DNA of 64,000 nucleotides from Neobacillus vireti (GTDB lineage Bacteria > Bacillota > Bacilli > Bacillales > Cytobacillaceae). The stretch's first letter is position 1. Every line of letters starts with the position of its first letter. Of this stretch, positions 2,539 through 58,567 are shown piece after piece. The stretch lies in contig NZ_LDNB01000006.1 of NCBI RefSeq assembly GCF_001026695.1, positions 1-64,000 of the forward strand. Reading direction: 5' to 3'. The translations under genes were made by a program, and so were the position numbers. Under the pieces are notes generated by a model. It saw nothing but the letters and a program-made list of their open reading frames with translations, ran no database searches and had not been told where the DNA came from.

Positions 2539-2656
2539 ATTCGAGAGTAAAGCAAGTCTATTCGAGAGATATGGACAGCTATTCGAGAGTAAAGCAGGTC
2601 TATCCGAGAGTAAAACTAGTCTATTCGAGAGAAACGAGCTTATATCCGAGAGTAAT
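2539..2656 (+). repeat. 21-bp phased array, core ATTCGAGAGTAAA, 6 units
   Basis: Six degenerate units start at 2539, 2560, 2581, 2602, 2623 and 2644, every 21 bases without exception. The core reads ATTCGAGAGTAAA (some ATCCGAGAG), and the last bases of the spacer tend to be GTCT. The array lies in the 5' untranslated region between the riboswitch terminator and the purE start, and is open in the purE frame. No similarity to a known mobile element is evident to me. Confidence 0.9.
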
Positions 2657-2681
2657 TCAACCTGAAACAGGGGGAGAAGGT

Positions 2682-3170
2682 ATGGCGAACTTAGTTGGAG
2701 TGATCATGGGAAGTAAGTCAGATTGGGATACGATGAAGCATGCTTGTGAGATTCTTGAACAATTCGAGATTCCTTTTGAAAAAAAGGTGGTTTCTGCCCA
2801 TCGGACACCTGATTTGATGTTTACATATGCAAAAGAAGCAAGAGAACAAGGCTTGAAGGTGATTATTGCTGGAGCGGGCGGCGCAGCTCATCTTCCTGGG
2901 ATGGTAGCAGCACAAACGACTCTGCCGGTCATTGGAGTTCCCGTTCAATCACAGGCTTTAAATGGACTCGATTCCTTGTTGTCGATTGTGCAAATGCCCG
3001 GCGGTGTTCCGGTGGCGACAGTTGCGATTGGAAAAGCAGGAGCGACAAACGCAGGCCTCTTGGCGGCGCAAATTTTAGCAACAGAAGATGCTGAGTTAGC
3101 GAGAAAGCTAGAAGCAAGAAGAGAAACAACAAGAAATGAAGTGCTAGAAAGTAGTGATGAGCTTGGCTAA
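2682..3170 (+). CDS. purE: N5-carboxyaminoimidazole ribonucleotide mutase
   Basis: PurE isomerises N5-CAIR to CAIR in de novo purine synthesis. The 162-residue protein has the class I signature: GSKSDWDTM (residues 10-18), SAHRTP (38-43), and [10 protein letters not shown] (65-74) with the active-site His70. It forms octamers in characterised relatives. The ATG at 2682 is preceded by GGGGAGAAGG. The frame stays open upstream into the 21-bp array because 21 is a multiple of three, but that extension has no support as coding sequence. It is the first gene of the pur operon and overlaps purK. Confidence 0.97.
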
Positions 3171-4311
3171 CAAGACGATTTTCCTAGGAGCAACGATCGG
3201 CATTATCGGCGGCGGCCAGCTCGGGCGAATGATGGCGTTAGCAGCCAAGGCACAGGGGTTTCGGATTGCGGTGTTAGAACCAGCTACTGACTCCCCATGC
3301 GGTCAGGTAGCTGACGTTGAAGTGATCGGTGCCTATCATGATCGCGTGGCGATTAGCCGCTTAGCTGAAATATGTGATGTCATCACCTACGAATTTGAAA
3401 ATATTGATGCCGAGACATTAGGGTGGCTGTGCGAACAGGCCTATGTGCCTCAAGGGAAAGAGCTATTGACGATCACACAGGATCGGATTAAAGAAAAGAC
3501 AGCGATTCAGCAGGCAGGCATTGAGGTCGCGCCATTTGAAGTCATCACAAGTGTGGAAGAGTTATTTTTTAAAATTGACGTAATTGGTTTTCCTGCCGTG
3601 TTAAAGACATCTAAAGGCGGCTATGATGGCAAGGGGCAGCTTGTGATTAAAAATGCCGATGATTTAGGCAAAGCAGGGGAACTGCTCAACCATGGAAATT
3701 GTGTGTTGGAAAAGTGGATTCCGTTTGAAAAAGAAATATCTGTTATCGTGACGCGAGGGCTGAATGGAGAAACAGCCATTTTTCCAGTAGCCGAAAACAT
3801 TCATGAAGAAAACATTTTACATATAACGATTGTTCCGGCTCGAATTTCAGAAGAGTTACAGACAAAGGCCATCCAAAAAGCGAAGCAGCTCGCTGTTTCA
3901 CTGGGAGTAGTCGGGACGCTGGCGGTAGAGATGTTTGTGACCGGCGATGGGGCGATTTATATCAATGAAGTAGCGCCAAGACCGCATAATTCCGGGCATT
4001 TTTCAATAGAGGCCTGTGCAACGTCACAGTTTGAACAGCATATCCGCGCTGTTTGCAACTGGCCATTAGGAAGTACGGAGCTATTAAAACCGGCTGTTAT
4101 GGTCAACCTATTGGGAGAGCATCTGGAAAATGTAAATGTGGAAATACCGAAGATGAATGACTGGAAGATTCATTTGTATGGAAAAAAAGAACCGAAAACG
4201 AAGCGGAAAATGGGGCATGTCACCATTTTGCGTGATAATGTAGAAGAGGCCCTTGCTGAGATTGAAGGGTCCAGCATTTGGAAGACAGTGAAGGAAAAGA
4301 TCGGAGGATAA
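3157..4311 (+). CDS. purK: N5-carboxyaminoimidazole ribonucleotide synthase
   Basis: PurK uses ATP and bicarbonate to convert AIR to N5-CAIR, the substrate of PurE encoded next to it. The 384-residue ATP-grasp protein has a nucleotide-binding start ([12 protein letters not shown], about residues 14-25), the ATP-grasp loop [12 protein letters not shown], and the metal-binding [11 protein letters not shown]. It overlaps the end of purE by 14 bases. The start is uncertain: GTG at 3154, ATG at 3157 and TTG at 3163 are all in frame, and no strong ribosome site separates them. Confidence 0.95.
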
Positions 4312-4314
4312 ATC

Positions 4315-5613
4315 ATGATTGATCGTTATACTAGACCTGAAATGGGAGCCATTTGGACGGAGGAGAACCGCTTTAATGCCTGGCTTGAGGTGGAAATCCT
4401 TGCTTGTGAAGCATGGGCAGAGTTAGGTGAGATCCCTAAAGAGGATGTCCGCAAGCTTCGTGAAAATGCTTCTTTTAACATCGAGCGGATCAAAGAAATA
4501 GAGGAAGAAACAAGGCATGATGTCGTGGCTTTTACCCGTGCGGTTTCGGAAACGCTTGGCGAGGAGCGGAAATGGGTTCATTACGGCTTAACTTCTACAG
4601 ATGTGGTGGATACAGCACTTTCATATGTTTTGAAGCAGGCTAACGCGATTTTATTGAAAGACTTGGAAAATTTTATTGAGATTTTAAAAAATAAAGCGAT
4701 TGAACACAAATTTACGGTGATGATGGGGCGGACACACGGTGTCCATGCGGAACCGACGACTTTTGGCTTGAAGCTTGCTCTTTGGTATGAGGAAATGAAA
4801 CGTAATCTTGAGCGTTTTAAGCAAGCGGCAGTAGGTGTCGAGTTTGGGAAAATTTCCGGTGCGGTTGGAACGTACGCAAACATTGACCCGTTTGTGGAGC
4901 AGTATGTATGTGAAAAATTAGGACTTGGCCGAGCGCCAATTTCCACTCAGACATTGCAGCGCGACCGCCATGCACATTATTTGTCCGTGCTTGCGTTGAT
5001 TGCGACTTCGATTGAAAAATTTGCTGTCGAGGTTCGCGGGCTGCAAAAGAGCGAAACGCGTGAGGTCGAGGAGTTTTTTGCAAAAGGGCAAAAGGGTTCG
5101 TCGGCGATGCCGCATAAACGCAATCCGATTGGCTCGGAAAATATGACAGGGCTTGCCCGCGTGATCCGCGGCTATATGATGACCGCTTATGAAAATGTAC
5201 CGCTTTGGCATGAACGGGATATTTCCCATTCTTCAGCGGAACGAATTATTTTGCCGGATGCGACGATTGCTTTGAATTATATGCTCAACCGGTTCGGTGG
5301 AATTGTGAAAAATTTAACTGTCTATCCGGAGAATATGAAGCGCAATATGGACCGCACATTGGGGTTAATCTACTCGCAGCGTGTGCTGCTGGCTTTAATT
5401 GATAAGGGACTATCCCGTGAAGAGGCCTATGACACGGTCCAGCCGAAAGCGATGGAGGCGTGGGAGCAGCAAGTTCCATTCCGCGGGTTGATCGAGGCAG
5501 AAGGAAAAATTACCTCATTGCTCTCTGGCGAAGAGATTGACGATTGTTTTGATTACAACTATCACCTGCAGCATGTTAATACCATTTTTGATCGACTAGG
5601 GTTGAACGGGTAG
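4315..5613 (+). CDS. purB: adenylosuccinate lyase
   Basis: PurB cleaves SAICAR to AICAR plus fumarate, and adenylosuccinate to AMP plus fumarate, so it acts in both the IMP and AMP pathways. The 432-residue protein carries the fumarase/aspartase superfamily signature [11 protein letters not shown] (about 261-271), the catalytic-region motif [10 protein letters not shown], and the TSTDVVDT segment. GGAGG lies seven bases before the ATG, which is four bases after the purK stop. The downstream gap to purC is unusually long for this operon and contains strong hairpins. Confidence 0.97.
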
Positions 5614-5652
5614 GGGCATAAGTGCCCGATACTTGTATCAAGTTGTTTTTAT

Positions 5653-5766
5653 GGTCACAGAGAGAGGTTCTTTGTGACCGGAAAGAGGAAAAAGGAGCCT
5701 CCACGGTAAATAAAAAAAGCCGAACAAAGGAATCGGAGCAGCAAGGGGTGGATTTTGCCCACCTCT
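5653..5766 (+). other. structured purB-purC intercistronic RNA: two hairpins
   Basis: GGTCACAGAG pairs with CTTTGTGACC (5653-5679, one wobble pair). AGGGGTGG (5744-5751) pairs with CCACCTCT (5759-5766, one G-U). Neither is followed by a T run, so they look like processing or stability elements, not terminators. A PurBox-like AAGCCGAACAAA occurs between them near 5717-5728. Confidence 0.6.
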
Positions 5767-5811
5767 CTAGTTTGAAAATTCCCAATATTGCGAAATAAGG
5801 AGTGTCCCACG

Positions 5812-6525
5812 ATGAAGGAACTGCTATACGAAGGAAAAGCAAAGCGGATTTACAAGACAGACGATGAGCGCACTGTGTTAGTCGAATACAAGGATTCAGC
5901 GACCGCCTTCAATGGTCAAAAAAAGGAAACGATCATTGGGAAAGGCCGTCTAAATAACGAGATTACTAGTTTGTTATTTTTAAAGTTAAAAGAACACGGA
6001 ATCCCTTCACACTTTATCAAAAAAATTTCCGCCACCGAGCAGCTGGTAAAGAAAGTTACCATTATTCCGCTTGAAGTAGTCGTTCGCAATGTCGCGGCGG
6101 GAAGCCTCTCCACACGATTGGGAATCGAAGAGGGTAAACGGCTAGCAGCCCCTCTCGTTGAATTTTATTTAAAAAATGACGACCTTGGAGATCCGCTCGT
6201 AACAGTTCATCACATCCTTGAGCTCAACGTAGCAACCGTCCAAGAAACAGCAATTTTACGAGAAAAAGCACTCGAAATCAATACAGTTTTATCAAGCTTT
6301 TTCAATGAACTTGGCATTCGTCTCATCGACTTTAAGCTTGAGTTCGGCAAAGATGAAGACGGGCATATTTTATTAGCGGACGAAATTTCTCCGGACACTT
6401 GCCGTCTATGGGATCAACAGACAAATGAAAAGCTTGATAAGGATGTATTCCGCCGTGATTTAGGAAGCTTAACCGAAGCCTACGAAACGATTTTAACAAG
6501 ACTTGGAGGTCAACAGCATGTATAA
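5812..6525 (+). CDS. purC: SAICAR synthetase
   Basis: PurC joins aspartate to CAIR using ATP, giving SAICAR. The 237-residue protein starts MKELLYEGKAKRIYKT, typical of the family, and has the VVRNVAAGS segment and the LADEISPDTCRLWD signature. The ATG at 5812 follows AAGGAG by nine bases. An upstream in-frame ATG at 5788 lacks a ribosome site. The gene overlaps purS by eight bases. Confidence 0.97.
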   Translation: MKELLYEGKAKRIYKTDDERTVLVEYKDSATAFNGQKKETIIGKGRLNNEITSLLFLKLKEHGIPSHFIKKISATEQLVKKVTIIPLEVVVRNVAAGSLSTRLGIEEGKRLAAPLVEFYLKNDDLGDPLVTVHHILELNVATVQETAILREKALEINTVLSSFFNELGIRLIDFKLEFGKDEDGHILLADEISPDTCRLWDQQTNEKLDKDVFRRDLGSLTEAYETILTRLGGQQHV

Positions 6526-6772
6526 GGTAAAGGTATTTGTCACATTAAGAGAAAGTGTATTAGACCCGCAAGGTAAGGCCGTAACTCATTCACTAAATGC
6601 TTTAAACTACAAAGAAGTCACCGATGTCCGCATCGGCAAATATATGGAATTAACCGTGGAAAAATCAGAGCGCAACATCGATGAGGTCATCAATGAAATT
6701 TGCACGAGCCTCCTGGCAAATCCGGTGATTGAAGACTACCGTTACGAAGTAGAGGAGTGTGTCGCGCAGTGA
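6518..6772 (+). CDS. purS: FGAM synthetase subunit PurS
   Basis: PurS is the small 84-residue subunit of the three-part FGAM synthetase (PurS, PurQ, PurL). It bridges the glutaminase and synthetase subunits. The sequence [19 protein letters not shown] is typical of the family. GGAGG lies eight bases before the ATG. Its stop overlaps the purQ GTG start, so the three subunits are probably translated in a coupled way. Confidence 0.96.
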
Positions 6773-7452: not shown

Positions 7453-9661
7453 ACCAAATCCGACTCAAATTAAAGCAGAAAAATTATATCAGCAAATGGG
7501 TTTGTCCGATGAAGAATTTACAATGATTGAAACCATCCTTGGACGCACGCCGAATTATACCGAAACAGGCCTTTTTTCGGTGATGTGGTCGGAGCACTGC
7601 AGTTATAAAAATTCAAAGCCAGTCCTTAAAAAATTCCCGACAACCGGTGAAAGAGTCCTGCAAGGCCCTGGTGAGGGCGCGGGGATTGTCGATATCGGCG
7701 ATGGCCAGGCGGTTGTTTTTAAAATAGAAAGCCACAACCATCCATCAGCGATTGAACCATACCAAGGAGCGGCAACCGGTGTCGGCGGCATTATCCGCGA
7801 TGTTTTTTCAATGGGAGCCCGTCCTATCGCTCTATTAAACTCGCTTCGCTTTGGCGAGCTTGATTCCGCGAGGGTGCGCTATTTATTTAAAGAAGTCGTT
7901 GCCGGAATCGCAGGGTACGGCAATTGTATTGGCATCCCAACTGTCGGCGGTGAAATTCAATTCGACCCTTGCTACGAGGGAAATCCGCTTGTGAATGCGA
8001 TGTGCGTCGGTCTTATCGATCATAACGATATTCAAAAAGGCCAAGCGCACGGCTTAGGCAATACCGTTATGTATGTAGGGGCGAAGACAGGCCGCGATGG
8101 GATTCATGGCGCTACCTTTGCCTCAGAAGAATTAACCGAGCAATCCGATGAGAAACGCCCGGCTGTTCAAGTTGGTGACCCATTTATGGAAAAATTACTC
8201 CTTGAGGCCTGCTTGGAGCTGATTCAATCCAATGCGCTTGTCGGAATCCAGGATATGGGCGCTGCCGGCCTTACAAGTTCCTCCGCGGAAATGGCAAGCA
8301 AGGCGGGAATGGGCATTGAGATGAACCTAGATCTTGTACCGCAGCGGGAAACTGGAATGACCGCCTATGAGATGATGCTGTCAGAATCACAGGAGCGGAT
8401 GCTGATTGTGGTTAAGAAAGGCCGCGAACCTGAAATCGCCCGGCTTTTTGAAAAATACGATTTAGAAGCAGTGGCCATTGGAACGGTAACCGATGATAAA
8501 AACCTGCGTTTAATTCATAACGGCGAAACGGTAGCCGATGTACCGGTGGATGCCTTAGCAGAGGATGCACCTGTGTACCAAAAGCCGTCACAAGAGCCAT
8601 CTTATTTTCAAGAATTCCAAGCAATGGAACAGGAAATCCCGCAAGTCGATGATTTGAAAGAAACGCTCGTAAAACTTTTGAGCCAGCCAACAGTTGCAAG
8701 CAAGGAATGGGTATATGAGCAGTACGACCACATGGTCCGCACCAATACCGTTGTCTCTCCAGGTTCAGATGCGGCGGTTCTCCGGATTCGCGGCACCCGG
8801 AAGGCACTCGCGATGACCACCGATTGTAACTCTCGATATGTATATTTGGATCCGGAAACCGGCGGAAAAATTGCCGTCGCTGAGGCAGCCCGCAACATTA
8901 TCTGTTCCGGTGCCGAGCCGTTAGCGATTACCGATAACCTGAACTTCGGAAATCCCGAAAAGCCAGAGGTATTCTGGCAAATTGAAAAAGCAGCCGACGG
9001 GATTAGTGAAGCATGCCGAGTACTTGAGACACCTGTCATCGGCGGTAACGTGTCATTGTATAACGAAACAAGCGGCACTGCGATCTATCCAACACCTGTC
9101 ATTGGCATGGTTGGCCTTGTAACTGACATCGACCATATTACAACACAATATTTTAAAAACAGCGGCGACCTGATTTATCTAGTTGGCGAAACAAAACCGG
9201 AATTTGGCGGCAGCGAGCTGCAAAAGCTGCTGAACGGCAGTATTTCCGGAAAAGCACCGGAATTAACGATTGAATTGGAAAAAGAAAGACAAGAACAGGT
9301 TCTAGCTGCGATTCGTTCAGGTTTAGTTCAATCTGCCCATGACCTGTCTGAAGGCGGCTTAGCAGTTGCATTGGCAGAATGTTTGTTCAGCAGCGATACA
9401 TTGGGTGCAGAAGTGTCCCTCAATGGAAATCCAGTAGCGGCATTATTCAGTGAAAGCCAATCTCGTTTTCTTTTATCCGTAAAGAAAGAACATCAAGCGG
9501 AGTTTGAAAGCTTAGTAGAAGCAGCCTTTATCGGTGAAGTGAATGATTCGGCAACACTACGAGTTCTAACAAACAGTGAATCAATACTTGAGGGTTCAAT
9601 AAATGAATTAAAAGCTGCCTGGAAAGGGGCGATCCCATGCTTGCTGAACTCAAGGGATTAA
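7436..9661 (+). CDS. purL: FGAM synthetase large subunit PurL
   Basis: PurL converts FGAR to FGAM with ATP and ammonia from PurQ. The 741-residue length is that of the small, Bacillus-type PurL that needs PurS and PurQ. Visible motifs are [12 protein letters not shown] near residue 50, [10 protein letters not shown] near 98, and two AIRS-like halves; the second half has the SDAAVLR segment. The ATG at 7436 lies within the end of purQ, preceded by GGAGGG. The 3' end overlaps purF by 25 bases. Confidence 0.97.
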
Positions 9662-12676: not shown

Positions 12677-14189
12677 TGTTTATGATAAAAGTGGAGTGAG
12701 CGAGTTTGCGAAAGAGCTAGTCAGCCTTGGCTTTGAAATCATCTCTACCGGCGGCACGAAAAAAATGCTGCAGGAGCAGGGAATCCCTGTTTTGGGCGTT
12801 AGTGATGTTACCGGCTTCCCGGAAATTCTCGAGGGACGAGTTAAAACGTTAAACCCGTATATTCATGGCGGTTTATTAGCAAAACAGAACGATGCGGAAC
12901 ATCAAAAGCAGCTTGCGGAACATGGAATCGAGCCGATTCAGCTTGTTTGTGTCAATCTGTATCCATTTCAGCAAACCATTGAAAACCCGGATGTAACAGT
13001 TGCTGATGCGATTGAGAATATTGATATTGGCGGTCCAACGATGCTCCGTGCTTCTGCGAAAAATCACCAATATGTCACCGTCGTGGTCGATCCGTCCGAT
13101 TATGAAACGGTAATTGCGGAGTTAAAAGCTGAAGGTGAAACGAAACTTGAAACAAGGGTAAAGCTTGCAGCTAAAGTGTTCCGCCATACCGCTGCTTATG
13201 ATGCGCTCATTGCCGATTACATGACAAACCTTGCCGCGGAAGCAACTCCGGAAAAATTAACGGTTACATATGAGTTAAAGCAGACACTCCGTTACGGGGA
13301 AAATCCGCATCAGCAGGCAGTTTTTTATCAAAAGCCGTTGGGCTCATCGTTCTCGATTGCCTATGCTGAGCAGCTTCACGGTAAAGAACTTTCTTACAAT
13401 AATATTAATGATGCCGATGCCGCCCTGCAGATCGTCAAGGAGTTTACAGAACCTGCTGCAGTTGCAGTGAAACATATGAACCCATGCGGTGTCGGTATCG
13501 GTAAAACAGGCTATGAAGCGTTCACCAAAGCGTTTGCGGCCGATCCTATTTCCATTTTTGGCGGTATCATTGCCTTTAACCGTGAAGTGGATGCAGAAAC
13601 GGCAAGCAAGCTTCATGAAATATTCCTTGAGATTATTATTGCACCGTCGTACTCCGATGAAGCGTTAGAGATTTTAGCAGCGAAAAAGAATCTGCGCCTG
13701 TTAACTATTCCGTTTTCCGATGCGAAAAAATCTGAGCGGAAATTGACCTCGATTGAGGGCGGATTGCTTGTTCAGGAGCAAGATCTGTTCACATTGGATG
13801 ATGCTGAAATCAAAGTTGCGACAAAACGCCAGCCGACTGCCGCTGAGTGGGAAGCATTAAAGCTGGGCTGGAAGGTTGTCAAACATGTGAAGTCGAATGC
13901 CATCGTTGTGGCTAATGAAGACATGACAATTGGTATTGGCGCCGGGCAAATGAACCGCGTTGGCTCAGCAGAAATTGCCTTGAAGCAGGCTGGTAAAAAA
14001 GCTGAAGGAGCTGCACTTGCCTCTGATGCGTTTTTTCCAATGGACGATACCGTCGAAGCGGCGGCTAAAGCGGGAATTACTGCAATTATTCAACCGGGCG
14101 GCTCAATTCGTGACGAAGATTCAATTAAAAAGGCAGATGAATATGGAATCGCGATGGTGTTTACGGGAGTTAGACATTTTAAACATTAG
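12654..14189 (+). CDS. purH: bifunctional AICAR transformylase / IMP cyclohydrolase
   Basis: PurH formylates AICAR and closes the ring to IMP, the last two steps. The 511-residue protein has the N-terminal cyclohydrolase domain ([26 protein letters not shown]) and the C-terminal transformylase domain with KHMNPCGVG near residue 272 and the closing [10 protein letters not shown]. The start at 12654 lies inside purN and is preceded by AGAGGAGAGG. A 389-base gap with two repeat arrays separates it from purD, which is unusual in this operon. Confidence 0.97.
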
Positions 14190-14212
14190 GCTGTTTTAGG
14201 AAAGCCGGCTCC

Positions 14213-14330
14213 AACTGTCGTGAAGTTGTTTTCAACAGTCGTAAAACGGGTTTCAACTGTCATAAACCAGTGCTTAGCGGTCGTAAAGCTGTCTTCAACT
14301 GTCGTAAACCGTGGTCTAACTGTCGAAAAA
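14213..14330 (+). repeat. 21-bp phased array, core CAACTGTCGTAAA, 6 units
   Basis: Six units carry the core TCAACTGTCGTAAA with variations. The GTCG positions fall at 14217, 14238, 14259 (GTCA), 14280, 14301 and 14322, an exact 21-base period. The array begins 23 bases after the purH stop. The frame read from 14220 stays open as heptads such as STVVKRV, but without a ribosome site or family match. Confidence 0.9.
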
Positions 14331-14370
14331 GGTAGTTTTCACCTTAACTTACCCCTTAAAAAGTCAATAT

Positions 14371-14390
14371 GGTGTAAAATTACACCTTTT
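14371..14390 (+). terminator. small terminator-like hairpin between purH and purD
   Basis: GGTGTA (14371-14376) pairs with TACACC (14381-14386) around an AAAT loop and is followed by TTTT. The stem is only six pairs, so it may cause partial termination or pausing ahead of purD. It lies between the two repeat arrays. Confidence 0.4.
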
Positions 14391-14430
14391 CATTGGATTT
14401 TTTGATGCATTTAGCGAGATCAAATCATAT

Positions 14431-14524
14431 ATCGGCGATTTTTATAGGTTTATCAGCGATTCTGACCTATTTATCAGCGAATTTTTAGGTATATCAGCGA
14501 ATCTGGGCTATTTATCAGCGAATC
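14431..14524 (+). repeat. 21-bp phased array, core TTTATCAGCGAATC, 5 units
   Basis: ATCAGCGA (or ATCGGCGA) occurs at 14431, 14452, 14473, 14493 and 14514. Spacings are 21, 21, 20 and 21. The last unit ends about 40 bases before the purD ribosome site. The same core occurs at 43291-43381, and inverted at 58329-58421. Confidence 0.9.
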
Positions 14525-14545
14525 AAAAAAGTATCAATCTTTTAG

Positions 14546-15871
<1,326 letters not shown>

Positions 15872-18132: not shown

Positions 18133-19878
18133 ATGCTGGAACAACGTTACCGTTGGAAAAACAAACACTTGCGTATGCACGTATCCGTATTGGATGGGAA
18201 AACGTCTCCCACCATATTATTGAAAAACGCCTTATATTTAAATCAGACTTTTCGCCGCTGGATGAGGGCAAATATTTGGATTTATGAAGATCGGATTGTT
18301 TATGTTGGCGAGAATCTGCCATCACATATCGAAAACTGTGAAGTCATTGACTGTACAAATGAAATCCTTGTTCCAGGATACATCGAACCGCATGCACATC
18401 CCTTCCAATTATATAATCCCCAAACGCTTGCAGCCTATGCATCCCAGTTTGGAACGACAACATTAATAAATGACAATATGGCATTAATGTTAAATTTGAA
18501 AAAAAGCGAAGCCTTTTCATTATTAAATGACCTTCGTTCGATTCCGATAACGATGTATTGGTGGAGCCGCTTTGACTCACAAACGGAAATTCTGCATGAA
18601 GAAGAAATATTTTCGCACAGTAATATTAAGTCATGGCTTGAGCATGATGCAGTCCTTCAGGGCGGGGAGCTGACAGGCTGGCCAAGGCTGCTAAATGGCG
18701 ATGATTTAATGCTTCACTGGATTCAAGAGGCAAAACGGATGCGTAAGAAAATTGAGGGTCATTTTCCCGGAGCATCTGAAAAAACCTTGGCAAAAATGAT
18801 GCTCCTCGGGACGGACTGTGACCACGAGGCGATGACAGGTGAAGAGGTTTATAACCGTTTAATGCAGGGGTATATGGTGTCGTTAAGATATTCTTCCATC
18901 CGGCCCGATTTGCCGCAAATTTTGGATGATATGAAGCGACTTGGAATTGATGCGTATGATCGATTAATCTTTAATACCGACGGCTCATCCTCCGCCTTTT
19001 ATGAACAGGGGATGAACGACCAGATGATCCGAATCGCCATTGAAAAAGGGGTTCCGATTATTGATGCCTATAATATGGCCACCGTCAATATTGCCAGATA
19101 CTACAATATCGACCATTTACATGGACAAATTGCTACTGGTCGTATAGCAAATATTAACTTCCTATCCAGCATTGAAAACCCTACACCTGTTTCGGTCCTG
19201 GCGAAAGGAAAGTGGGTAAAACGGGACGGAGTGAAAACGGAAGATACGAATCCGCCAATGAACTGGAAGGACTATGGCCTAAAGGAGATGAATCTTGATT
19301 GGGAATTAACGATGGATGATTTACAATTTTCCATGCCTTTTGGGATCAAAATGGAAAACTCCGTCATCACCAAGCCCTACTCCATTGCGATTGATGTATC
19401 AGGGGATGAATTGTCGCACGATCATGATGAATGTTATTTTACCTTAATTGACCGTAATGGGAAATGGCGGATTAATACGCTGTTAAAAGGCTTCGCAACA
19501 AAGCTTTCGGCGTTAGCCAGCTCGTTTTCCAATACCGGTGATATTATTTTAATCGGGAAAAATAAACAAGATTTAATCCTAGCTTTTAATAGAATGAAAG
19601 AATTAGGCGGCGGGATTGTCATGGTCGAGGATGATCAGGTGGTTTGTGAACTGCCGCTTCATTTAAGCGGAATTATGTCAGACCTTCCTATGGAAGACTT
19701 AATGGTTCAAGAAAAAAGGTTGTCTGAAGGGCTGCAAGCTAGGGGCTATTCTTTCTCAGACGCGATTTATAGTCTGCTGTTCTTTTCATCAACCCATTTA
19801 CCTTATATTCGTATAACCCAACAGGGGATGTATGATGTGATGAATAAAACAGTACTCTTTCCGTCAATAATGCGTTAA
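18133..19878 (+). CDS. yerA: adenine deaminase-like amidohydrolase, YerA type
   Basis: This 581-residue protein has the amidohydrolase metal motif in GYIEPHAHPF and a downstream GHFPGASEKTLAKMM segment, followed by a C-terminal domain shared with adenine deaminases. B. subtilis YerA lies at the same place after purD. Adenine deaminase activity would recycle adenine to hypoxanthine, which fits the purine neighbourhood, but the actual substrate is inferred. The ATG at 18133 follows AAGGGAGGGG. A TATAAT at 18040-18045 may be the -10 box. Confidence 0.8.
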   Translation: MLEQRYRWKNKHLRMHVSVLDGKTSPTILLKNALYLNQTFRRWMRANIWIYEDRIVYVGENLPSHIENCEVIDCTNEILVPGYIEPHAHPFQLYNPQTLAAYASQFGTTTLINDNMALMLNLKKSEAFSLLNDLRSIPITMYWWSRFDSQTEILHEEEIFSHSNIKSWLEHDAVLQGGELTGWPRLLNGDDLMLHWIQEAKRMRKKIEGHFPGASEKTLAKMMLLGTDCDHEAMTGEEVYNRLMQGYMVSLRYSSIRPDLPQILDDMKRLGIDAYDRLIFNTDGSSSAFYEQGMNDQMIRIAIEKGVPIIDAYNMATVNIARYYNIDHLHGQIATGRIANINFLSSIENPTPVSVLAKGKWVKRDGVKTEDTNPPMNWKDYGLKEMNLDWELTMDDLQFSMPFGIKMENSVITKPYSIAIDVSGDELSHDHDECYFTLIDRNGKWRINTLLKGFATKLSALASSFSNTGDIILIGKNKQDLILAFNRMKELGGGIVMVEDDQVVCELPLHLSGIMSDLPMEDLMVQEKRLSEGLQARGYSFSDAIYSLLFFSSTHLPYIRITQQGMYDVMNKTVLFPSIMR

Positions 19879-19950
19879 ACTGTAAATAACTAATGAGTTA
19901 AAGCGTGAAAGTGATTTTTGAGCCTTGGAGGAAATAGGGGTGTTCGTTGA

Positions 19951-21000
19951 ATGAAAAAATGGGCTGCCGCCTTTGCAGCAATCTTGTTATTACTTTCTGG
20001 ATGTAGTCATAAGGAGAAAGTAAAAGTACCAGTAAAGAAGGAAAAAACAGTCAATAAGGCTGAGGAGAAAGCGGAAGAGAAACAGGGTGCCCCGTACATT
20101 TATCCGTTAACAGGCATAGGCTCAGAAACGCAAACCGAGGGCAGGGCTGTTGCCGTTATGATTAATAATCATCCAAAGGCAAGGCCGCAATCGGGCTTGA
20201 ACAAGGCAGATATTGTTTATGAGGTATTGGCAGAGGCGGATATTACGCGCTTTCTTGCTGTGTTTCAAAGTGAAAAACCGGCGAATATCGGTCCCGTCCG
20301 TAGTGCACGCGATTATTATATCGACCTGGCTAAAGGACTAAATGCGCTTTATATTGCTCATGGCTGGAGTGAGGAAGCTAGGAAAATGCTCGAGGGCAAT
20401 TATATCGACAATCTTAATGGCATGGTTTATGATGGGACACTTTTTAAACGGTCCAGCACCCGAAAGGCACCACACAATTCCTATATTACGTATGAAAATA
20501 TTTTAAAGGGTGTCGAACAAAAGAAGTATTCACTGGAACAAAGCCCGCCGGCCTTCAAGTTTTTATCAGAGGAAGAAAGTAAAAACGTGATCGGTGACGA
20601 TGCAGAGTCAGTGAAAATCACCTATTCATCTGGTGGAATCTCTGATTCCAGCTTCGAATTTGATGTCGCCCTTGGTAAATATAAACGGTTTTCTGGCGGC
20701 GAGCAATCGGTCGATTTAGATACAAATGAACCTGTTTTACTTAATAATATTTTTATTATTGAAACAAACCATCGAGTAATCGATTCGGTTGGCCGACGCG
20801 ATATTGATTTCAAGTCCGGCGGCAAAGCTTATTTGCTCCAAATGGGCAAGGTTAACGAAGTGGAATGGGCTAACAAGGATGGCCAGATTATCGCTGTTAA
20901 GGATGGTAAAGAAGTACCGTTTGTTCCAGGAAAAACATGGGTGAATGTGGTGCCGACTAATCCTGGACTGCAAAAAAGCGTTTCTTTTAACGCAAAATAA
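19951..21000 (+). CDS. yerB: DUF3048 lipoprotein, YerB type
   Basis: This 349-residue protein begins with a lipoprotein signal peptide (lipobox LLSGC, Cys18), a lysine- and glutamate-rich linker, then the DUF3048 domain (INNHPKARPQSGLNKADIVYE onward) and a C-terminal part with NVVPTNPG. It should be anchored to the outer face of the membrane. Order and length match B. subtilis YerB. I know no assigned function. Confidence 0.85.
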   Translation: MKKWAAAFAAILLLLSGCSHKEKVKVPVKKEKTVNKAEEKAEEKQGAPYIYPLTGIGSETQTEGRAVAVMINNHPKARPQSGLNKADIVYEVLAEADITRFLAVFQSEKPANIGPVRSARDYYIDLAKGLNALYIAHGWSEEARKMLEGNYIDNLNGMVYDGTLFKRSSTRKAPHNSYITYENILKGVEQKKYSLEQSPPAFKFLSEEESKNVIGDDAESVKITYSSGGISDSSFEFDVALGKYKRFSGGEQSVDLDTNEPVLLNNIFIIETNHRVIDSVGRRDIDFKSGGKAYLLQMGKVNEVEWANKDGQIIAVKDGKEVPFVPGKTWVNVVPTNPGLQKSVSFNAK

Positions 21001-22266: not shown

Positions 22267-24549
22267 GTGCAATATTTAACAGATAAGCTTTTAAACGGAC
22301 TGAATCCAGAGCAGCAAAGTGCCGTTAAAGCGACTGACGGCCCACTTCTCTTGATGGCGGGTGCCGGAAGTGGAAAAACAAGAGTCTTAACACACCGAAT
22401 TGGTTATTTAATTGTAGAAAAACGAGTGAATCCCTATAATATTTTAGCGATTACGTTTACAAATAAAGCGGCCCGGGAGATGCGGGAACGGATTGGAAAA
22501 ATGATGGGCGGGGTTGCTGAAGAAATTTGGATTTCTACCTTTCACTCGATGTGTGTCCGGATTTTGCGCCGCGATATCGACCGAATGGGCTTTAACCGCA
22601 ATTTTACGATTCTGGACACAACCGACCAGCAATCCGTCGTTAAAGGAATCCTCAAAGACAAAAATCTCGATCCGAAGAAGTTTGACCCGCGCGCTATCCT
22701 AGGTTCCATCAGCTCAGCTAAAAACGAACTGATTGACCCGGAAGAGTATGCAAAAACCGCCGGCGGTTATTTTGAACAAACTGTAAGTGATGTTTACACG
22801 GAATACCAGAAGCGATTACGGAAAAATCAGGCACTCGACTTCGATGACCTGATAATGATGACGATTCAATTATTTCAGCGCGTACCGGATGTACTTGAGT
22901 ATTATCAGCGTAAATTTCAATACATTCATGTCGATGAGTATCAGGATACGAACAGAGCGCAGTATATGTTAGTCAAAATGCTGGCGAATCGCTTCCAAAA
23001 CCTTTGTGTTGTCGGGGATTCCGATCAGTCGATCTACCGCTGGCGCGGCGCCGACATCGCTAATATTCTATCGTTCGAGAAAGACTATCCGAACGCAACA
23101 GTTATTCTGCTTGAGCAAAACTATCGCTCGACAAAGCGGATATTGCTTGCGGCAAATAAGGTTATCGAAAACAACTTGAACCGGAAGGCAAAAAATCTAT
23201 GGACGGAAAATCCTGAAGGAAATAAGCTTGTTTACTACCGTGCCGATAGTGAGCAGGGTGAAGCCCAATTCGTTGCGGGAAAAATTAAAGAATTAACCCG
23301 AAACGGGAAAAAACTTTCCGACATTGCGATTCTTTATCGAACCAATGCACAGTCACGGGTCATGGAGGAAGTTTTACTTAAATCGAATATCGAATATGCC
23401 ATCGTCGGTGGCATTAAGTTCTATGACAGGAAAGAAATCAAAGATACGCTTGCTTACTTGCGTTTGATTTCTAATCCGGACGATGATATCAGCTTGCAGC
23501 GGGTGATTAATGTTCCAAAGCGCGGAATTGGTTCGACCTCAGTTGATAAAATCGCTAATTTTGCGGCAATGCATGATATTTCCTTATATCAGGCATTGGA
23601 CTCGATTGAATTAATCGGCCTAAGCCCGAAAATTACAAAAGCTGCACGTGAATTGCGTGATTTAATCCGTAATTATACAAATATGCAAGAGTTCCTGTCG
23701 GTAACTGAACTAGTAGAGGAAGTTTTGGAAAAAACGGGTTACCGGGAAATGCTCAAAGCGGAAAAATCAATTGAAGCCCAAAGTCGCTTAGAAAACCTTG
23801 AGGAATTATTATCGGTAACAAAAAACTTTGAAGACTCCAGTGAAGATAGAAGCCTTGTTGCGTTTTTAACAGATCTAGCACTTGTTGCTGATATTGATTC
23901 ATTAGATGATGATGGGGAAAAGGTTGATTCGATCACGCTGATGACGTTACACTCAGCAAAAGGCTTGGAATTCCCGGTTGTTTTCTTGATTGGCCTGGAA
24001 GAAGGCGTCTTCCCGCATAGCCGTTCGCTTATGGAAGAAGTCGAGATGGAAGAAGAGCGCCGCCTTGCATATGTCGGCATTACCAGGGCAGAGCAAAGTT
24101 TATTTATCACCAATGCCCAAATGAGAACCTTGTTTGGTAGAACCAATATGAACCCGGCATCAAGATTTATCAGTGAGATACCGGAAGATTTGATTGAAGG
24201 TGTTGAACCGGAGAAACGGATGAATACGCCATTTGGGTCAAGTGGAAGAACGTTTGGCTCGTCAGGAAGTTCTTATGGCTCATCTGGAAATTCCTCATTT
24301 GGCGCATCTAGATCATTCGCTACACCGGCGGCGAAAAGAAAACCGGTGACAAGGCCTGTTTCCGCTGCAACCAGTGGCGATGAAGTCGGCTGGAAGGTTG
24401 GCGATAAGGCGGAGCATGGTAAATGGGGAACCGGAACAGTTGTCAGTGTAAAAGGTCAAGGCGAAGGAACCGAGCTTGACATTGCCTTCCCGAGCCCAGT
24501 TGGGATTAAACGCCTTTTAGCCAAGTTTGCACCAATTAAAAAAGCGTAA
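22267..24549 (+). CDS. pcrA: ATP-dependent DNA helicase PcrA
   Basis: PcrA is the essential UvrD-family 3'-5' helicase for repair and plasmid rolling-circle replication. The protein is about 760 residues, with Walker A GAGSGKT near residue 31, [12 protein letters not shown] (motif II), QNYRST, and [14 protein letters not shown] near 565. The C-terminal 65 residues form the small RNA-polymerase-binding Tudor-like domain ([13 protein letters not shown]). It is linked by a Ser/Gly repeat ([19 protein letters not shown]). The GTG at 22267 aligns with the family start; an ATG at 22243 is also in frame. Confidence 0.95.
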
Positions 24550-43221: not shown

Positions 43222-43290
43222 GGGCTGTTTTTCGTAAAATTTGAAAAAAACAATACCGAAAACAGTGTTTAACACCCGAAGAAAATTTTT

Positions 43291-49919: not shown

Positions 49920-49971
49920 GGGTTTGGGCGATATTAATTATGGATCATGGTGGGGGATTGATTGATAAATT

Positions 49972-50119
49972 GAGTTTACTGGCGGAAGGGGTGAGTTTAC
50001 TGGCGGAAGGGGTGAGCTTACTGGCGGAAGGGGTGAGCTTACTGGCGGAAGGGGTGAGTTTACTGGCGGAAGAGGTGAGCTTACTGGCGGAAGAGGTGAG
50101 TTTACTGGCGGAAAAGGTA
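49972..50119 (+). repeat. 21-bp phased array, core TTACTGGCGGAAG, 7 units
   Basis: GGCGGA starts at 49981, 50002, 50023, 50044, 50065, 50086 and 50107, an exact 21-base period. Units are nearly identical (GAGTTTACTGGCGGAAGGGGT), so this is the youngest-looking array. It would read as SLLAEGV heptads, but no ribosome site or domain supports translation. Confidence 0.95.
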
Positions 50120-50120
50120 T

Positions 50121-50178
50121 GTTAACTGTTGCAAAGTTTGGTTCAACTGTCGGGAAAGGTGTGTCAACTGTCGCAAAG
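50121..50178 (+). repeat. 21-bp phased array, core TCAACTGTCGNAAA, 3 units, in phase with the preceding array
   Basis: AACTGTTG, AACTGTCG and AACTGTCG start at 50124, 50145 and 50166. The step from the last TTACTGG unit is also 21 bases when ACTG is aligned. The core matches the array at 14213-14330. The rest of 50179-50310 shows no gene or clear structure. Confidence 0.9.
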
Positions 50179-50326
50179 CCGTATTTTTTCTCGTATACGT
50201 AATTTTTTCTTAGCAATTAAGCATTTCCCCGTGCTAAAATGCTTCCTTAATAGCTTAACTTTGGAAAGGAACACATTTTGAGGTATTATCATACATAATA
50301 ATAGTCATTATATGGAGTTGATTTGT

Positions 50327-53780: not shown

Positions 53781-53952
53781 TCATTTTCTCTCCTAAATCA
53801 ATTCTTCTTTGACTATTATAAGGGAAGTTATCGTGAATGTCTGCGATGAGCTTATTGGAAATATTTTAAAAAATGTATGAAAACAATTTCGTGATCTTTT
53901 GCTATTCATGATATGATCATGGTATTAAAAATTAATTATGGTGGTGATGGGA

Positions 53953-54219: not shown

Positions 54220-54228
54220 TAGTAGTAT

Positions 54229-54258
54229 AAAAAAAGGGAGCAGCGTGCTCCTTTTTTT
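54229..54258 (+). terminator. Rho-independent terminator
   Basis: GGAGCA and TGCTCC flank a GCG loop, extended by A runs and T runs to a long stem ending in seven Ts. The A/T symmetry allows function in both directions. Confidence 0.9.
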
Positions 54259-54376
54259 CATGCTATTAATCTAAAAATACATTCTAATGTTAATACTGAA
54301 GAAGGAATCATTGCGGTAAAGCGGAAAAGTTTGATATTATCAGTATTAAAATAACGTTGGGATCGGAGGTCAAATA

Positions 54377-54676
54377 ATGTCACGAATTTCAAATGACCAA
54401 GTGAAACATGTTGCCAACTTAGCACGCTTGGCGATTACAGAAGAAGAAGCGGAAAAGTTCACAAAGCAGCTCGATTCGATTATAACCTTTGCAGAGCAGT
54501 TAAATGAACTGGATACAGAAAATGTGGAACCTACATACCATGTGCTTGATATGAAAAATGTATTACGTGAGGACATTCCGCAAAAAGGATTGCCTCAGGA
54601 AGAGGTACTGAAAAATGCACCGGAGCATCAAGACGGACAAATTAAAGTACCGAATATAATGGGGAAGGAGGATTAA
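54377..54676 (+). CDS. gatC: Asp/Glu-tRNA amidotransferase subunit C
   Basis: GatC is the small subunit of GatCAB, which converts Glu-tRNA(Gln) to Gln-tRNA(Gln) in bacteria lacking glutaminyl-tRNA synthetase. The 99-residue protein has the family pattern [20 protein letters not shown] and [15 protein letters not shown] precedes the ATG. Four bases separate it from gatA. Confidence 0.96.
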
Positions 54677-54680
54677 AAAA

Positions 54681-56138
54681 GTGAGTTTATTTGATTATAA
54701 AGTTTCAGATCTTCATGAGCTTTTACATAAGAAAGAACTAAAAGTGACTGACCTAGTGGAGGAATCGTATAAACGGATTGGCCAAGTCGAGGATAAGGTC
54801 CAGGCGTTTTTAACGTTGGATGAAGAACAGGCACGGCAATCAGCAAAATTACTTGATGAAAAACTCGCAACTGACTCTCAAAAAGGATTGCTATTTGGTA
54901 TGCCGATTGGTGTGAAGGATAACATCGTGACAAAGGGCTTACGAACAACTTGTGCGAGTAAAATCCTCGAAAACTTCGATCCAATTTACGACGCAACCGT
55001 TGTCCAAAAACTGCAACAGGCAGAAACTGTGACCATTGGAAAGCTAAACATGGACGAGTTTGCCATGGGTTCATCGAACGAAAACTCGGCTTTCCAAAAG
55101 ACACGGAATCCGTGGGCGCTTGACAGGGTACCAGGAGGATCATCTGGTGGTTCGGCAGCATCGGTAGCCGCTGGAGAAGTTCTATTTTCATTAGGCTCTG
55201 ATACGGGTGGTTCCATCCGCCAGCCTGCATCTTTCTGTGGTGTCGTCGGTATGAAGCCAACCTATGGTCGTGTGTCCCGCTTCGGTCTAGTGGCGTTTGC
55301 CTCATCCCTTGACCAAATTGGACCGATTACAAGAACGGTTGAAGATAATGCCTATCTTCTACAAGCAATCTCTGGACTTGACCCGATGGACTCAACTTCT
55401 GCAAATGTGGATGTTCCAAACTTTGCGGCTGCCTTAACAGGTGACGTGAAAGGTCTGAAAATTGCTGTACCTAAGGAGTATCTTGGCGAAGGAGTTGGCG
55501 AAGCAGCGCGTAAATCCGTGTTAGCTGCTTTAAAAGTCCTTGAAGGTCTAGGAGCAGTTTGGGAAGAGGTTTCACTGCCACACTCCAAATACGCTCTAGC
55601 AGCCTACTACTTACTTTCTTCATCTGAAGCATCAGCGAACCTTGCCCGTTTTGACGGGGTACGCTATGGGTACCGGACACCAGATGCTGAAAGCTTAATT
55701 GATTTATATAAAAAGACACGTGCAGAAGGCTTTGGCGATGAAGTGAAACGCCGAATCATGCTCGGTACCTTTGCGTTAAGTTCGGGCTACTATGATGCTT
55801 ATTATAAAAAAGCACAACAGGTTCGTACATTGATTAAGAAGGATTTTGAAGATGTGCTTGCCAAATTTGATGTGATTGTCGGACCAACAGCACCAACACC
55901 AGCTTTTAAAATTGGCGAAAATATTGAAGATCCACTAACAATGTACGCGAATGATATTTTAACGATACCTTTGAACCTAGCGGGCTTACCGGGAATTTCG
56001 GTTCCTTGCGGCTTTGATGATGGTTTGCCGTTAGGTCTGCAAATCATCGGCAAGTATTTTGATGAAGCTACCATTTATCGAGCAGCACATGCTTTCGAAC
56101 AAGCAACAGACTTTCATAAACAAAAGCCGGAATTGTAG
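54681..56138 (+). CDS. gatA: Asp/Glu-tRNA amidotransferase subunit A
   Basis: GatA is the glutaminase subunit. The 485-residue protein has the amidase signature [14 protein letters not shown] (about 152-165) and the catalytic lysine in GVKDNI (about 78), with [10 protein letters not shown] completing the Lys-Ser-Ser triad. It starts at GTG 54681 after GGAGGA and lies 12 bases before gatB. Confidence 0.97.
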
Positions 56139-56150
56139 GGGGTGACAAGA

Positions 56151-57578
56151 ATGGAATTTGAAACAGTGATCGGACTTGAAGTCCATGTCGAGTTAAAAAC
56201 AGACTCTAAAATTTTCTCAGCGAGCCCAAACCAGTTTGGGGATGAGCCGAACACGAATACGAGTGTAATCGACCTAGGATATCCAGGGGTTTTACCTGTC
56301 CTTAATAAAAAGGCAGTTGAGTTCGGAATGAAGGCGGCGATGGCGTTAAACTGTGAAGTTGCGTCACATACGAAATTTGACCGCAAGAACTATTTTTACC
56401 CGGACAATCCAAAGGCATATCAAATTTCGCAATTTGACAAGCCGATTGGCGAGCACGGCTGGATTGAAATTGAGGTTAACGGTTATACGAAACGGATTGG
56501 AATCACAAGAATTCATCTGGAAGAGGATGCCGGGAAACTGAACCATGGAAAAGGGTACTCATTATGCGACTACAATCGTCAGGGCACCCCGCTCGTTGAG
56601 ATTGTTTCTGAGCCAGATATCCGTACTCCAGACGAGGCCTATGCATATCTTGAAAAATTAAAGTCAATTATTCAATACACTGGCGTTTCCGATTGTAAAA
56701 TGGAAGAAGGTTCGCTTCGTTGTGACGCCAATATTTCCATTCGTCCGGTGGGACAAGAGGAATTCGGTACGAAAACGGAATTGAAGAACTTGAACTCGTT
56801 CAACTTTGTCCGTAAGGGTCTTGAATATGAAGAAAAGCGACAACGTGAAGTGGTTTCGGCAGGCGGGGTCATTGAACAGGAAACTCGTCGATTTGATGAG
56901 GCGACTGGTGCCACTTTGCTGATGAGGGTCAAAGAAGGTTCCGATGATTATCGCTACTTCCCGGAACCAGACTTGTTGGATATATTCATTGATGAGGATT
57001 GGAAAGCGCGGATTCGCGCGGAAATCCCTGAGCTTCCAGACGAGCGGCAAAAGCGTTATGTTGAAGAACTCGGATTACCTGTTTATGATGCCAAGGTACT
57101 TACAATGACAAAAGAAATGGCCGATTTCTTTGAGGCAACTGTGGGTGGCGGTGCCGATGCGAAACTGGCTTCGAACTGGATCATGGGCGATGTTTCCGCC
57201 TATTTAAACGCCGAGTCGAAGGAGCTTGGTCAGGTGGCGTTGACACCAGAAGGCCTCGCCAGCATGATTAAGTTGCTTGAAAACGGAACGATCTCATCGA
57301 AAATCGCAAAAACCGTTTTTAAAGAATTAATCGAAAACGGCGGCGATGCCGAGCAAATCGTGAAAGAAAAAGGTCTCGTGCAAATTTCGGATGAAGGAAC
57401 ACTTTTGAAGATCATTGCGGAAGTCCTTGATGCTAATCCGAAATCAATTGAAGATTTTAAAGCTGGGAAAAATAAAGCGGTTGGTTTCCTTGTTGGTCAG
57501 CTCATGAAAGCTACCAAGGGGCAAGCAAATCCGCAAATGGTTAATCAATTATTGCAGCAAGAACTACAAAAACGATAA
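56151..57578 (+). CDS. gatB: Asp/Glu-tRNA amidotransferase subunit B
   Basis: GatB activates the tRNA-bound Glu with ATP and transfers ammonia from GatA. The 475-residue protein begins [16 protein letters not shown] and has the signature [17 protein letters not shown], metal-binding [17 protein letters not shown], and a C-terminal YqeY-like helical tail. The ATG at 56151 follows GGGGGTGA. The operon ends with a terminator. Confidence 0.97.
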
Positions 57579-57585
57579 ATCAGAA

Positions 57586-57616
57586 GCTGGCAGATTTTTT
57601 CTGTCGGCTTTTTGTG
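57586..57616 (+). terminator. terminator after gatB
   Basis: AGCTGGCAGA and TCTGTCGGCT pair over ten positions with two G-U pairs around a TTTTT loop, followed by a five-T run. Confidence 0.8.
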
Positions 57617-57735
57617 TGGGGGAAAAGTCGAGCGTGATTCGACATATTTAGCAAAATATTTGTAAAGCACTTGGATTTTACACTGACAAATATGTTAATA
57701 TTCAAAATAAACTAGTTACCAAGAGGGGGAGAATT

Positions 57736-58281
57736 ATGTTTATCCATAAGATTGACGAAGAGGTTTCTCTGAAGTTAATAGAATTAAATGATGCTGAAAG
57801 AATATTTGAACTGACGGACCATAATAGAGAACATTTGCGGGTGTGGCTCCCGTGGCTTGATATGACGACTAAAATTGAGGATACAAAAGGTTTTATTCAA
57901 ATGTGTTTAAAGGGGTATGCCGAGAATAATAGTATGAATACAGTAATTTTATTCAAAGGGGAAATCGTCGGAGCTGCGAGCTTTAACACGATTGATTGGT
58001 CGAATAAAAAAGCTTCCATTGGTTATTGGCTTGCTGCGGAATACCAAGGAAATGGGATCATGACTAAAACAGCTAGAGCACTGACCGATTATGCCATAAG
58101 CGAATTAAAGTTAAACCGAGTTGAAATTAGGGCAGCAGTGGAGAATAAGAAAAGCCGAGGTATTCCTGAAAGATTAGGTTTTGTAAACGAAGGCTGCATC
58201 AGACAAGCCGAATGGTTGTATGACCATTACGTTGACCATATAGTATACGGGATGTTGGCTGAGGATTGGAATAAAGAATAA
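57736..58281 (+). CDS. RimJ/RimL-type GNAT acetyltransferase, YdaF-like
   Basis: The 181-residue protein has the RimJ/RimL arrangement: ADR-like region with HNREHLRVWLPWLD, the strand ASIGYWLAAEYQGNGIMTK containing the acetyl-CoA loop, and NRVEIRAAVENKKSRGIPERLGF (split by function). Such enzymes acetylate protein N termini or other amines; the target is unknown. GAGGGGGAG precedes the ATG. No operon partner is seen. Confidence 0.88.
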   Translation: MFIHKIDEEVSLKLIELNDAERIFELTDHNREHLRVWLPWLDMTTKIEDTKGFIQMCLKGYAENNSMNTVILFKGEIVGAASFNTIDWSNKKASIGYWLAAEYQGNGIMTKTARALTDYAISELKLNRVEIRAAVENKKSRGIPERLGFVNEGCIRQAEWLYDHYVDHIVYGMLAEDWNKE

Positions 58282-58328
58282 TAGATTTCTAGCTAACAGT
58301 GTAGGGATCTTTAGTTGAACATTTATCG

Positions 58329-58426
58329 ATTCGCTGATAAAATCTCATATTCGCTGATAAAGTGCGTTAATTCGCTGATAAACAGACGGAAATCGCTGAT
58401 AAATTCCAGAAAACCGCTGATAAAAA
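58329..58426 (+). repeat. 21-bp phased array, core ATTCGCTGATAAA, 5 units
   Basis: TCGCTGAT starts at 58331, 58351, 58372, 58393 and 58414 (last unit CCGCTGAT), spaced 20, 21, 21 and 21. The core is the reverse complement of the TTTATCAGCGAAT arrays at 14431 and 43291. It lies between a GNAT gene and a convergent VOC gene. Confidence 0.9.
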
Positions 58427-58490
58427 ATATCTGGCATTAGTTTTTTTATTAATTAGGAAACTAATGGCTGCTTTGAAGCTCTGAAATTCA

Positions 58491-58567
58491 ATTCGCAAAT
58501 AAAACCGGGAGATTCGCAAATAAAACGTGCAATTTCGCAAATAAAACGTAGATTTTCGCAAATAAGA
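58491..58567 (+). repeat. 21-bp phased array, core ATTCGCAAATAAAA, 4 units
   Basis: TTCGCAAATAA starts at 58492, 58513, 58534 and 58555, exactly 21 apart. The core differs from the neighbouring array only in the middle (ATTCG-CAAA-TAAA against ATTCG-CTGA-TAAA). The stretch 58570-58690 beyond it shows nothing I can assign. Confidence 0.9.

Follow-up and report, generated by a model that had tools for sequence, protein, structure and literature searches.

Seven arrays of short direct repeats lie within the first 64,000 nucleotides of contig NZ_LDNB01000006.1 of Neobacillus vireti. This stretch, hereafter the window, covers positions 1-64000 of one contig (C24) in a 5.31-Mb draft genome (G000). 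The arrays differ in core sequence and share a period of 21 bp. We consider it probable that they are modules for binding at multiple sites, acting at the DNA level and spread in part, in Neobacillus, by miniature inverted-repeat transposable elements (MITEs). Such a module would hold a 10-12 bp site in roughly five copies, spaced by two turns and facing the same side of the helix, and would probably form a cooperative platform for a sequence-specific DNA-binding protein. The Neobacillus arrays are carried and spread in part by non-autonomous MITEs of approximately 190-370 bp, with inverted ends GGCTSTTTTCTAAAAGATTGTTG and 8-bp A+T-rich duplications, a palindrome, GTGTAATTTTACAC, often following one step past the last unit. 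We observed the helical phasing of the units, a copy number near five, MITE carriage of part of the Neobacillus arrays and the persistence of array and palindrome.

A first-pass annotation of the window had counted 41 units in eight arrays. Repeats were found at all eight positions and the 41 units were confirmed, but the arrays number seven, those listed at 49981 and 50124 being one array in a single phase (Table 1). A lag scan (63-base windows, at least 36 matches, lags 10-40) returned lag 21 as the sole lag with matches anywhere in the window. The matches formed six clusters, one for each array except that at 14428, which appeared at lag 41 instead; results from Tandem Repeats Finder were concordant. 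A chain finder agreed with the annotation that the steps measure 21 bp apart from three of 20 bp, all within the ATCAGCGA/TTCGCTGAT family. A weak chain of four units that it called at 24234, inside an open reading frame (ORF), was not counted among the arrays of this kind. The statement that all arrays are intergenic stood as to their mostly non-coding location, but not for the array at 49978, which overlaps an ORF of 82 aa; the DNA alignment of that ORF with a sister genome stops at 49932. As for the proposal that the arrays share period and not sequence, the period was upheld, but several of the window cores (TTTATCAGCGAAT, TTTACTCTCGAAT, TTTATTTGCGAAT and TTTACTGGCGGAA) were judged by eye to be versions of a single motif, and elements with the same ends were found to house several core types.

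The period recurs outside the window. Several of the samples described here were picked at known arrays, and genes were called from ORFs. In 464 kb of the same genome, a sample in which 7 of the 20 extra stretches were picked at or near known arrays, the scan gave 22 matches at lag 21, versus none at that lag in three second-order Markov replicates; this sample held at least six core types with a single period, mostly in non-coding DNA. Thirty-three stretches of 20 kb picked regardless of arrays held six arrays of at least four units, one of which (L178) lay largely over an ORF. When the scan was extended to the purL neighbourhood of 80 named Bacillaceae (1.58 Mb, lags 10-60), matches were most frequent at lags 21 (24), 42 (23) and 52 (17), followed by 20 (10), 12 (8), and 40 and 60 (7 each). 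Arrays at these purL loci use other cores, such as TTGGCCGATAAA, AGTCGGAATAAA and TTTCGCACATT.

Copy number and spacing were analyzed in 47 distinct arrays of core TTCGCTGATAAA (units with at most two mismatches) from five Neobacillus genomes, at loci located via two neighbouring exact cores; these loci comprised all own-genome matches, 30 of 43 from G052 and 30 of 47 from G028, G030 and G051 together. Five units were present in 36 arrays, four in 7, three in 2 and seven in 2; the window's array at 58492, whose core is a variant, is among those with three units, and a four-unit array (L222) starts 94 bases from a contig end. A preference for five was also seen in the lag-scan set, in which 47 arrays of at least four units had 5 units in 26 cases, 6 in 12, 4 in 3 and 7-30 in six, and with an unrelated Cytobacillus core, for which five of seven arrays (two of the seven being orthologous) had five units. 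The 181 steps of the core TTCGCTGATAAA set measured 21 bp (129), 20 bp (49), 18 bp (two) and 22 bp (one). Thus 178 of 181 steps keep the helical phase that the annotation had pointed out, as do all 90 of 90 core pairs, although distances from 17 to 23 were allowed. The 20-bp steps and the mostly intergenic location also sustained its view that the arrays have no coding role, and coding repeats were rejected as an explanation on these grounds. In arrays of clustered regularly interspaced short palindromic repeats (CRISPR), identical repeats some 24-40 bp long alternate with unique spacers that are of much the same length; a CRISPR origin was rejected for the present arrays, whose cores measure 10-12 bp and whose spacers measure 8-9 bp and are common to copies. 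CRISPR-like arrays do occur elsewhere in the genome, in L104 (G000:C24:144001-164000) at 7681-9554 and 18413-19954, with 29 and 23 matches to a 24-base repeat piece (GTCGCAC...GTGCGTGG), mostly 65-67 bp apart.

The flanks of Neobacillus arrays can be aligned. A left end, GGCTCTTTTCTAAAAGATTGTTG, is followed by a short T-rich linker and by unit 1, and the right end resembles CAACATTCTTTACGAAAACAGCC, roughly the inverse of the left. The palindrome lies past the last unit in 16 of the 47 arrays, at 20-22 nt in 13 of the 16, and in none of the 47 at the upstream control position. Cores vary between elements (TTCGCCGATAAA, TTCGCTAATAAA, TTCGCAAATAAA, TTCGCCCATTGA) and are almost uniform inside one. 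Copies at different places (L100 and L179) have spacers in common and were therefore dispersed by copying. Left ends with at most three mismatches were found in 51 of 61 Neobacillus genomes, while the reversed control gave 6 matches in 5 genomes. The genome with 35 such matches, G015, offered the clearest set: in the 15 that were examined the element measured 346-359 bp, and its 8-bp flanks agreed exactly in 11 copies, with one mismatch in 3 and with two in 1 (for L318 the second of two candidate right ends was taken). Judging from these features, the G015 elements are MITEs. Short length, non-coding content and terminal inverted repeats were found in the window's purH-purD element and in the sampled Neobacillus elements alike, and target-site duplications (TSDs) of constant length, 8 bp, in G015 and at purH-purD. 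With 11 of 15 copies bearing exact duplications, the G015 MITE (L311-L327) looks recently active; its transposase was not found. In place of a 21-bp array it carries palindromes repeated at distances of 51, 62 and 51 bp (L317, counted by eye), which resemble a published 52-nt class; similar palindromes are present at purF-purM of Cytobacillus massiliigabonensis (L029). A related MITE lacking a 21-bp array lies at L170:6921-7092, with ends GGCTGTGTTAAAGAACATTGTTG and GGCTCTGTTAAAAGTGAATGTTG and flanked on both sides by TTATTTTT.

Twenty further copies were chosen by the left end alone (at most two mismatches), blind to arrays, in genomes other than G015. A 21-bp array of at least three units was present in 10, eight of them with five units; two copies had two units (by eye), L340 had palindromes of the 52 type, and seven had no array (L334, L335, L338, L343, L344, L345 and L350). 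From the array density of the sample, the probability that at least 10 of 20 stretches of 300 bp hold an array by chance is about 3e-8 if they are independent, although some copies are not, L348 being an ortholog of L353 and L344 a member of the same family as L345. The 8-bp flanks were exact in 7 of the 20 (L340, L342, L344, L345, L346, L352 and L353), a count weaker than those for G015, since a match between the flanks earned a right end extra score. Elements that have the same ends and exact duplications contain palindromic repeats of another sort or lack an array entirely, and for this reason we regard the array as cargo rather than as a part required for transposition.

Within the window, the carrier is seen between purH and purD. 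The gap between these genes measures 8-15 bp in 9 of the 11 Neobacillus loci compared and 383 bp in the window, where both arrays lie in one stretch with AAACATTA on either side; the ends of this element differ from the consensus at 7/23 and 3/23 positions. A sister genome, G023, is 87-94% identical to the window in the main aligned segments. It has the first array only, between AGCTGTTTTGCTTACACGTTGTTG and CAACAAACTTTTAGTAAACAGCC, and for this reason the purH-purD element looks like a composite of two MITEs. An unrelated MITE-like insert occupies the purH-purD gap of L070, between two copies of AAACATTA, its target letters being those of the window element. In the comparison with this sister genome, of a kind proposed in the annotation, four window arrays are missing from G023, two have fewer units there and one is nearly unchanged. 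At the site of the 49978 array, G023 has two TTTACTCTCG units 21 bp apart (by eye). In its ortholog of the 43288 array one core letter is seemingly changed in all three remaining units; the spacers could not be aligned, and an independent origin is possible.

Searches for a source of the transposition machinery were made with known families. ISL3 and DUF772 transposases gave no match in the Neobacillus vireti genome. An ISL3 element of G039 has ends GGCTCTGTTAAA, similar to those of the MITEs, with TTAAAGAA on both sides (8-bp TSD); the GGCTSTTTTCTAAAAG end was found in none of the 30 ISL3 loci examined, and the 387-aa transposase of G039, used as query on 11 genomes, was found in G039 only. 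This ISL3-family insertion sequence (L262, L253, L271) is present in G039 in four copies with ends GGCTSTGTTAAA and overlapping frames of 162 and 387 aa.

Gene context was classed for 43 of the 47 arrays of core TTCGCTGATAAA, leaving out three that adjoin the edge of a locus and one that overlaps an ORF call. Of the 43, 17 lay between convergent genes, 23 between tandem genes and 3 between divergent genes. Intergenic bases of the own-genome sample are 23% divergent and 18% convergent (p = 0.006 for divergent, p = 0.0009 for convergent). Divergent gaps are thus avoided by the arrays, and a role near gene ends may be envisaged. At purF-purM, arrays of 21-bp period occur immediately after the purF stop in L030, L033 and L040.

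Array and palindrome persist while the ends decay after insertion, which suggests a use to the host or to the element. Among seven copies of one subfamily, two orthologous pairs included, mean pairwise identity reached 0.96 in cores, 0.92 in spacers and 0.98 in the palindrome, as compared with 0.77 and 0.71 in the two ends and 0.82 in the stretch from palindrome to right end. Once the two best units of an array are left out, the others differ from the core at 7.9% of sites in the 40 of 47 arrays without a recognisable end and at 9.1% in the seven with ends, a divergence that the finder, by accepting at most two mismatches per unit, limits to 16.7%. Core variants agree inside an array (0.89, versus 0.45 when pooled over 55 arrays), an agreement that duplication alone could yield. 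In 16 selected elements with steps of 20, 21, 20 and 21 bp, same-slot spacers were slightly more alike across core types (0.56) than those of the other equal-length slot (0.48); over all 55 arrays this likeness was weak (0.43 versus 0.41). A change in a common reader might explain it.

The orthologous pairs, the ceiling set by the finder and the faint slot-wise likeness weigh against binding modules spread by MITEs, as do several results on the ends. The purH-purD element is the only convincing one in the window: the arrays at 2539, 43288, 49978, 58331 and 58492 have no end with up to 6/23 mismatches on either side. Recognisable ends accompany 4 of 23 arrays in the own-genome sample and 5 of 36 additional ones that have the same core (null, 0.6% of 332 random placements), and none of the 24 arrays from other genera. 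De novo inverted-repeat alignment of the flanks of the 47 arrays gave scores within the null, with little power, and neither a binding protein, an autonomous transposon nor an influence on expression came to light. The class may include arrays that never moved by MITE.

Other explanations were weighed against the same observations. The arrays could be binding sites of the transposase, or of a helper, that mobilises the MITE, in the manner of subterminal repeats of other transposons, and so matter for movement only. The array does begin about 10 bases inside one element end, and core variants track element subfamilies. This seems unlikely nonetheless, given same-ended elements that have exact 8-bp duplications with no 21-bp array (L344, L345) or with palindromes instead (L340 and the G015 copies), arrays that outlive the transposon ends, and arrays of other genera that lack such ends. 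In its strict form, with the arrays as obligatory transposase sites, it was rejected on account of the array-less elements with exact TSDs. Functionless minisatellites born of replication slippage, their 21-bp period a mutation bias, would account for the seven near-identical units of the 49978 array, missing from G023, and for the finding that similarity is higher between equal-length spacers that are second neighbours (0.56) than between adjacent ones (0.41; null 0.40), as though units had been duplicated in pairs. Against slippage as the whole account, which we hold to be improbable, copy number peaks at five, cores remain alike across diverged spacers inside an array, and no other lag from 10 to 40 gave matches in the window. 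Growth in place by slippage may still have occurred under the binding-module reading, as at 49978-50187.

The arrays might also work as RNA, as small RNAs or 3'-UTR elements, in line with a proposal of Subirana and Messeguer. Most lie between co-directional or convergent genes, often right past a stop codon and inside the pur operon, and are therefore probably transcribed. Some Cytobacillus arrays finish in a hairpin formed by an inverted core after the last unit (L030 and L033), which resembles a terminator and lies inside the operon. This explanation strikes us as quite unlikely: no Rfam family was found at the arrays, and the steps of 20 and 21 bp match the DNA helix. Among the 23 tandem arrays of core TTCGCTGATAAA, the core ran with the flanking genes in 11 and against them in 12, and a function of the sense RNA was rejected for lack of strand bias. 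Hairpins between neighbouring spacers were rejected as well, their complementarity showing no excess (3.43 versus 3.27 in the null).

The preferred reading, that of DNA-level binding modules carried in part by MITEs, can be extended, more tentatively, to a new chromosomal DNA-reading system. Reader proteins whose recognition drifts within a lineage would assemble on about five sites two turns apart or, in a sister version of the system, on palindromes separated by five or six turns. MITEs would spread the sites, which would stay in place near the 3' ends of genes even when the transposon ends have decayed, and core variants would agree because the sites followed as the reader changed. We regard this wider picture as possible rather than probable. 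In one genus, the enigmatic constant-size repeats gain a carrier with defined ends, duplications and young-looking copies, and the birth, age and fate of the repeats therefore become legible from sequence. A copy number near five and a conserved array-palindrome unit offer concrete DNA baits for a reader search. Should such a reader exist, one could test for a system that binds at multiple sites throughout the genome in many Bacillaceae.

The purine operon occupies the first 16 kb of the window; purE, purF, purH and purD were confirmed by Pfam, the names of the genes lying between them being provisional. The PurL encoded in the window is most similar to those of named Neobacillus species (86-89% identity). 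Arrays with different cores may adjoin: those at 58331-58575 in the window have a counterpart at L117:14323-14593, in the same order and 68% alike over 252 bp. A further core family, AAAATAGMCAAAAC, occurs at L100:652-777, L117:17896-18000 and L119:2096-2221, with an adjoining palindrome, TGTCTAATTAGACA, that is exact in L100 and L117; in these two loci the AAAATAGMCAAAAC array adjoins one of the TTCGC type.

Table 1. Repeat arrays and associated features of the 64-kb window.
Feature	Position	Strand	Remarks
Purine riboswitch	2304..2405		
Array, 6 units, core ATTCGAGAGTAAA	2539..2664	+	Between purine riboswitch and purE (ATG 2682); missing from G023
Left target-site duplication AAACATTA	14181..14188	+	Overlaps end of purH
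MITE-like element, 366 bp, two arrays inside	14189..14554	+	Between purH and purD; 8-bp flanks identical
Array, 6 units, core AACTGTCGTAAA	14213..14338	+	Common to G023, where it has one unit fewer
Palindrome GGTGTAAAATTACACC of second purH-purD array	14371..14386	+	Judged from sequence
Array, 5 units, core TTCGCTGATAAA, steps 21,21,20,21	14428..14531	-	Missing from G023
Element end CGCTCTTTTCTAAAAGATTGATA, read on - strand, 3/23 mismatches	14532..14554	-	
Right target-site duplication AAACATTA	14555..14562	+	
Possible degenerate end; palindrome GTGTTTAACAC	near 43222; 43265-43275		By eye; failed end test
Array, 5 units, core TTCGCTGATAAA	43288..43391	-	Between Rieske-domain gene and tetrapyrrole methylase gene; fewer units in G023
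Array, 10 units in one phase: 7 near-identical GGCGGAAGGGGTGAGTTTACT, then 3 with AACTGTYG cores	49978..50187	+	Missing from G023
Array, 5 units, core TTCGCTGATAAA	58331..58434	+	Between convergent genes; almost unchanged in G023
Array, 4 units, core TTCGCAAATAAA	58492..58575	+	Missing from G023; no ends found

Plasmid iterons are small groups of direct repeats, spaced by about two turns, that a replication initiator binds at an origin from one side of the helix. By analogy, the arrays may work like iterons, from which they differ in that many are distributed over the chromosome and no replication initiator is seen with them.

The annotation knew of no named element with these properties and supposed that such repeats might be unremarked in other Bacillaceae. 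In this it was mistaken: constant-size, variable-sequence tandem repeats were described in 176 Bacillus genomes by Subirana and Messeguer (2021; PMC8161180), 781 of 4029 being of 20-21 nt and 1886 of 4029 of 51-53 nt. That paper notes the two helix turns, gives the function as unknown, and proposes a polymerising nucleoid protein or small RNAs; its text, as far as available, is silent on transposition. The seven window arrays, with 4-10 units and steps of 20 or 21 bp, belong to its class of 20-21 nt repeats in at least four copies, and the presence of at least six mostly non-coding core types of one period in a single genome corresponds to its several families per genome. The two sets are further alike in being species-specific and in having short sequences common to families; they differ in that no five-unit peak is given and no carrier named in the portions of PMC8161180 at hand. 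Those portions likewise say nothing of mobile elements around the repeats, of a copy number near five or of a palindrome next to the array, and these points constitute what is new here. A literature search, with subscription papers and supplements mostly outside its reach, found no link of such repeats to MITEs and no match to the core and end sequences.

The closest printed case seen is BrickBuilt of Porphyromonas gingivalis (PMC4596501), an intergenic MITE with short inverted ends that contains tandem 23-nt repeats and has a sister MITE with 41-nt repeats. From what is accessible of that account, its repeats are spacerless, its ends IS5-like and its TSD irregular or lacking, and it is confined to one species and a relative. 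The TAACTGA direct repeats of Beggiatoaceae (PMC4679880) form many intergenic sets of 2-6 per genome, also of unknown function; as described in the parts available, they differ in being heptamers, lying mostly no more than several nucleotides upstream of start codons, with a proposed role in translation. The SIRC of Arabidopsis (PMC10342631) belong to plant nuclear DNA, and their abstract states no fixed period; they resemble the present arrays in combining short direct repeats with diverse spacers and in their proposed origin inside MITEs that lost their ends.

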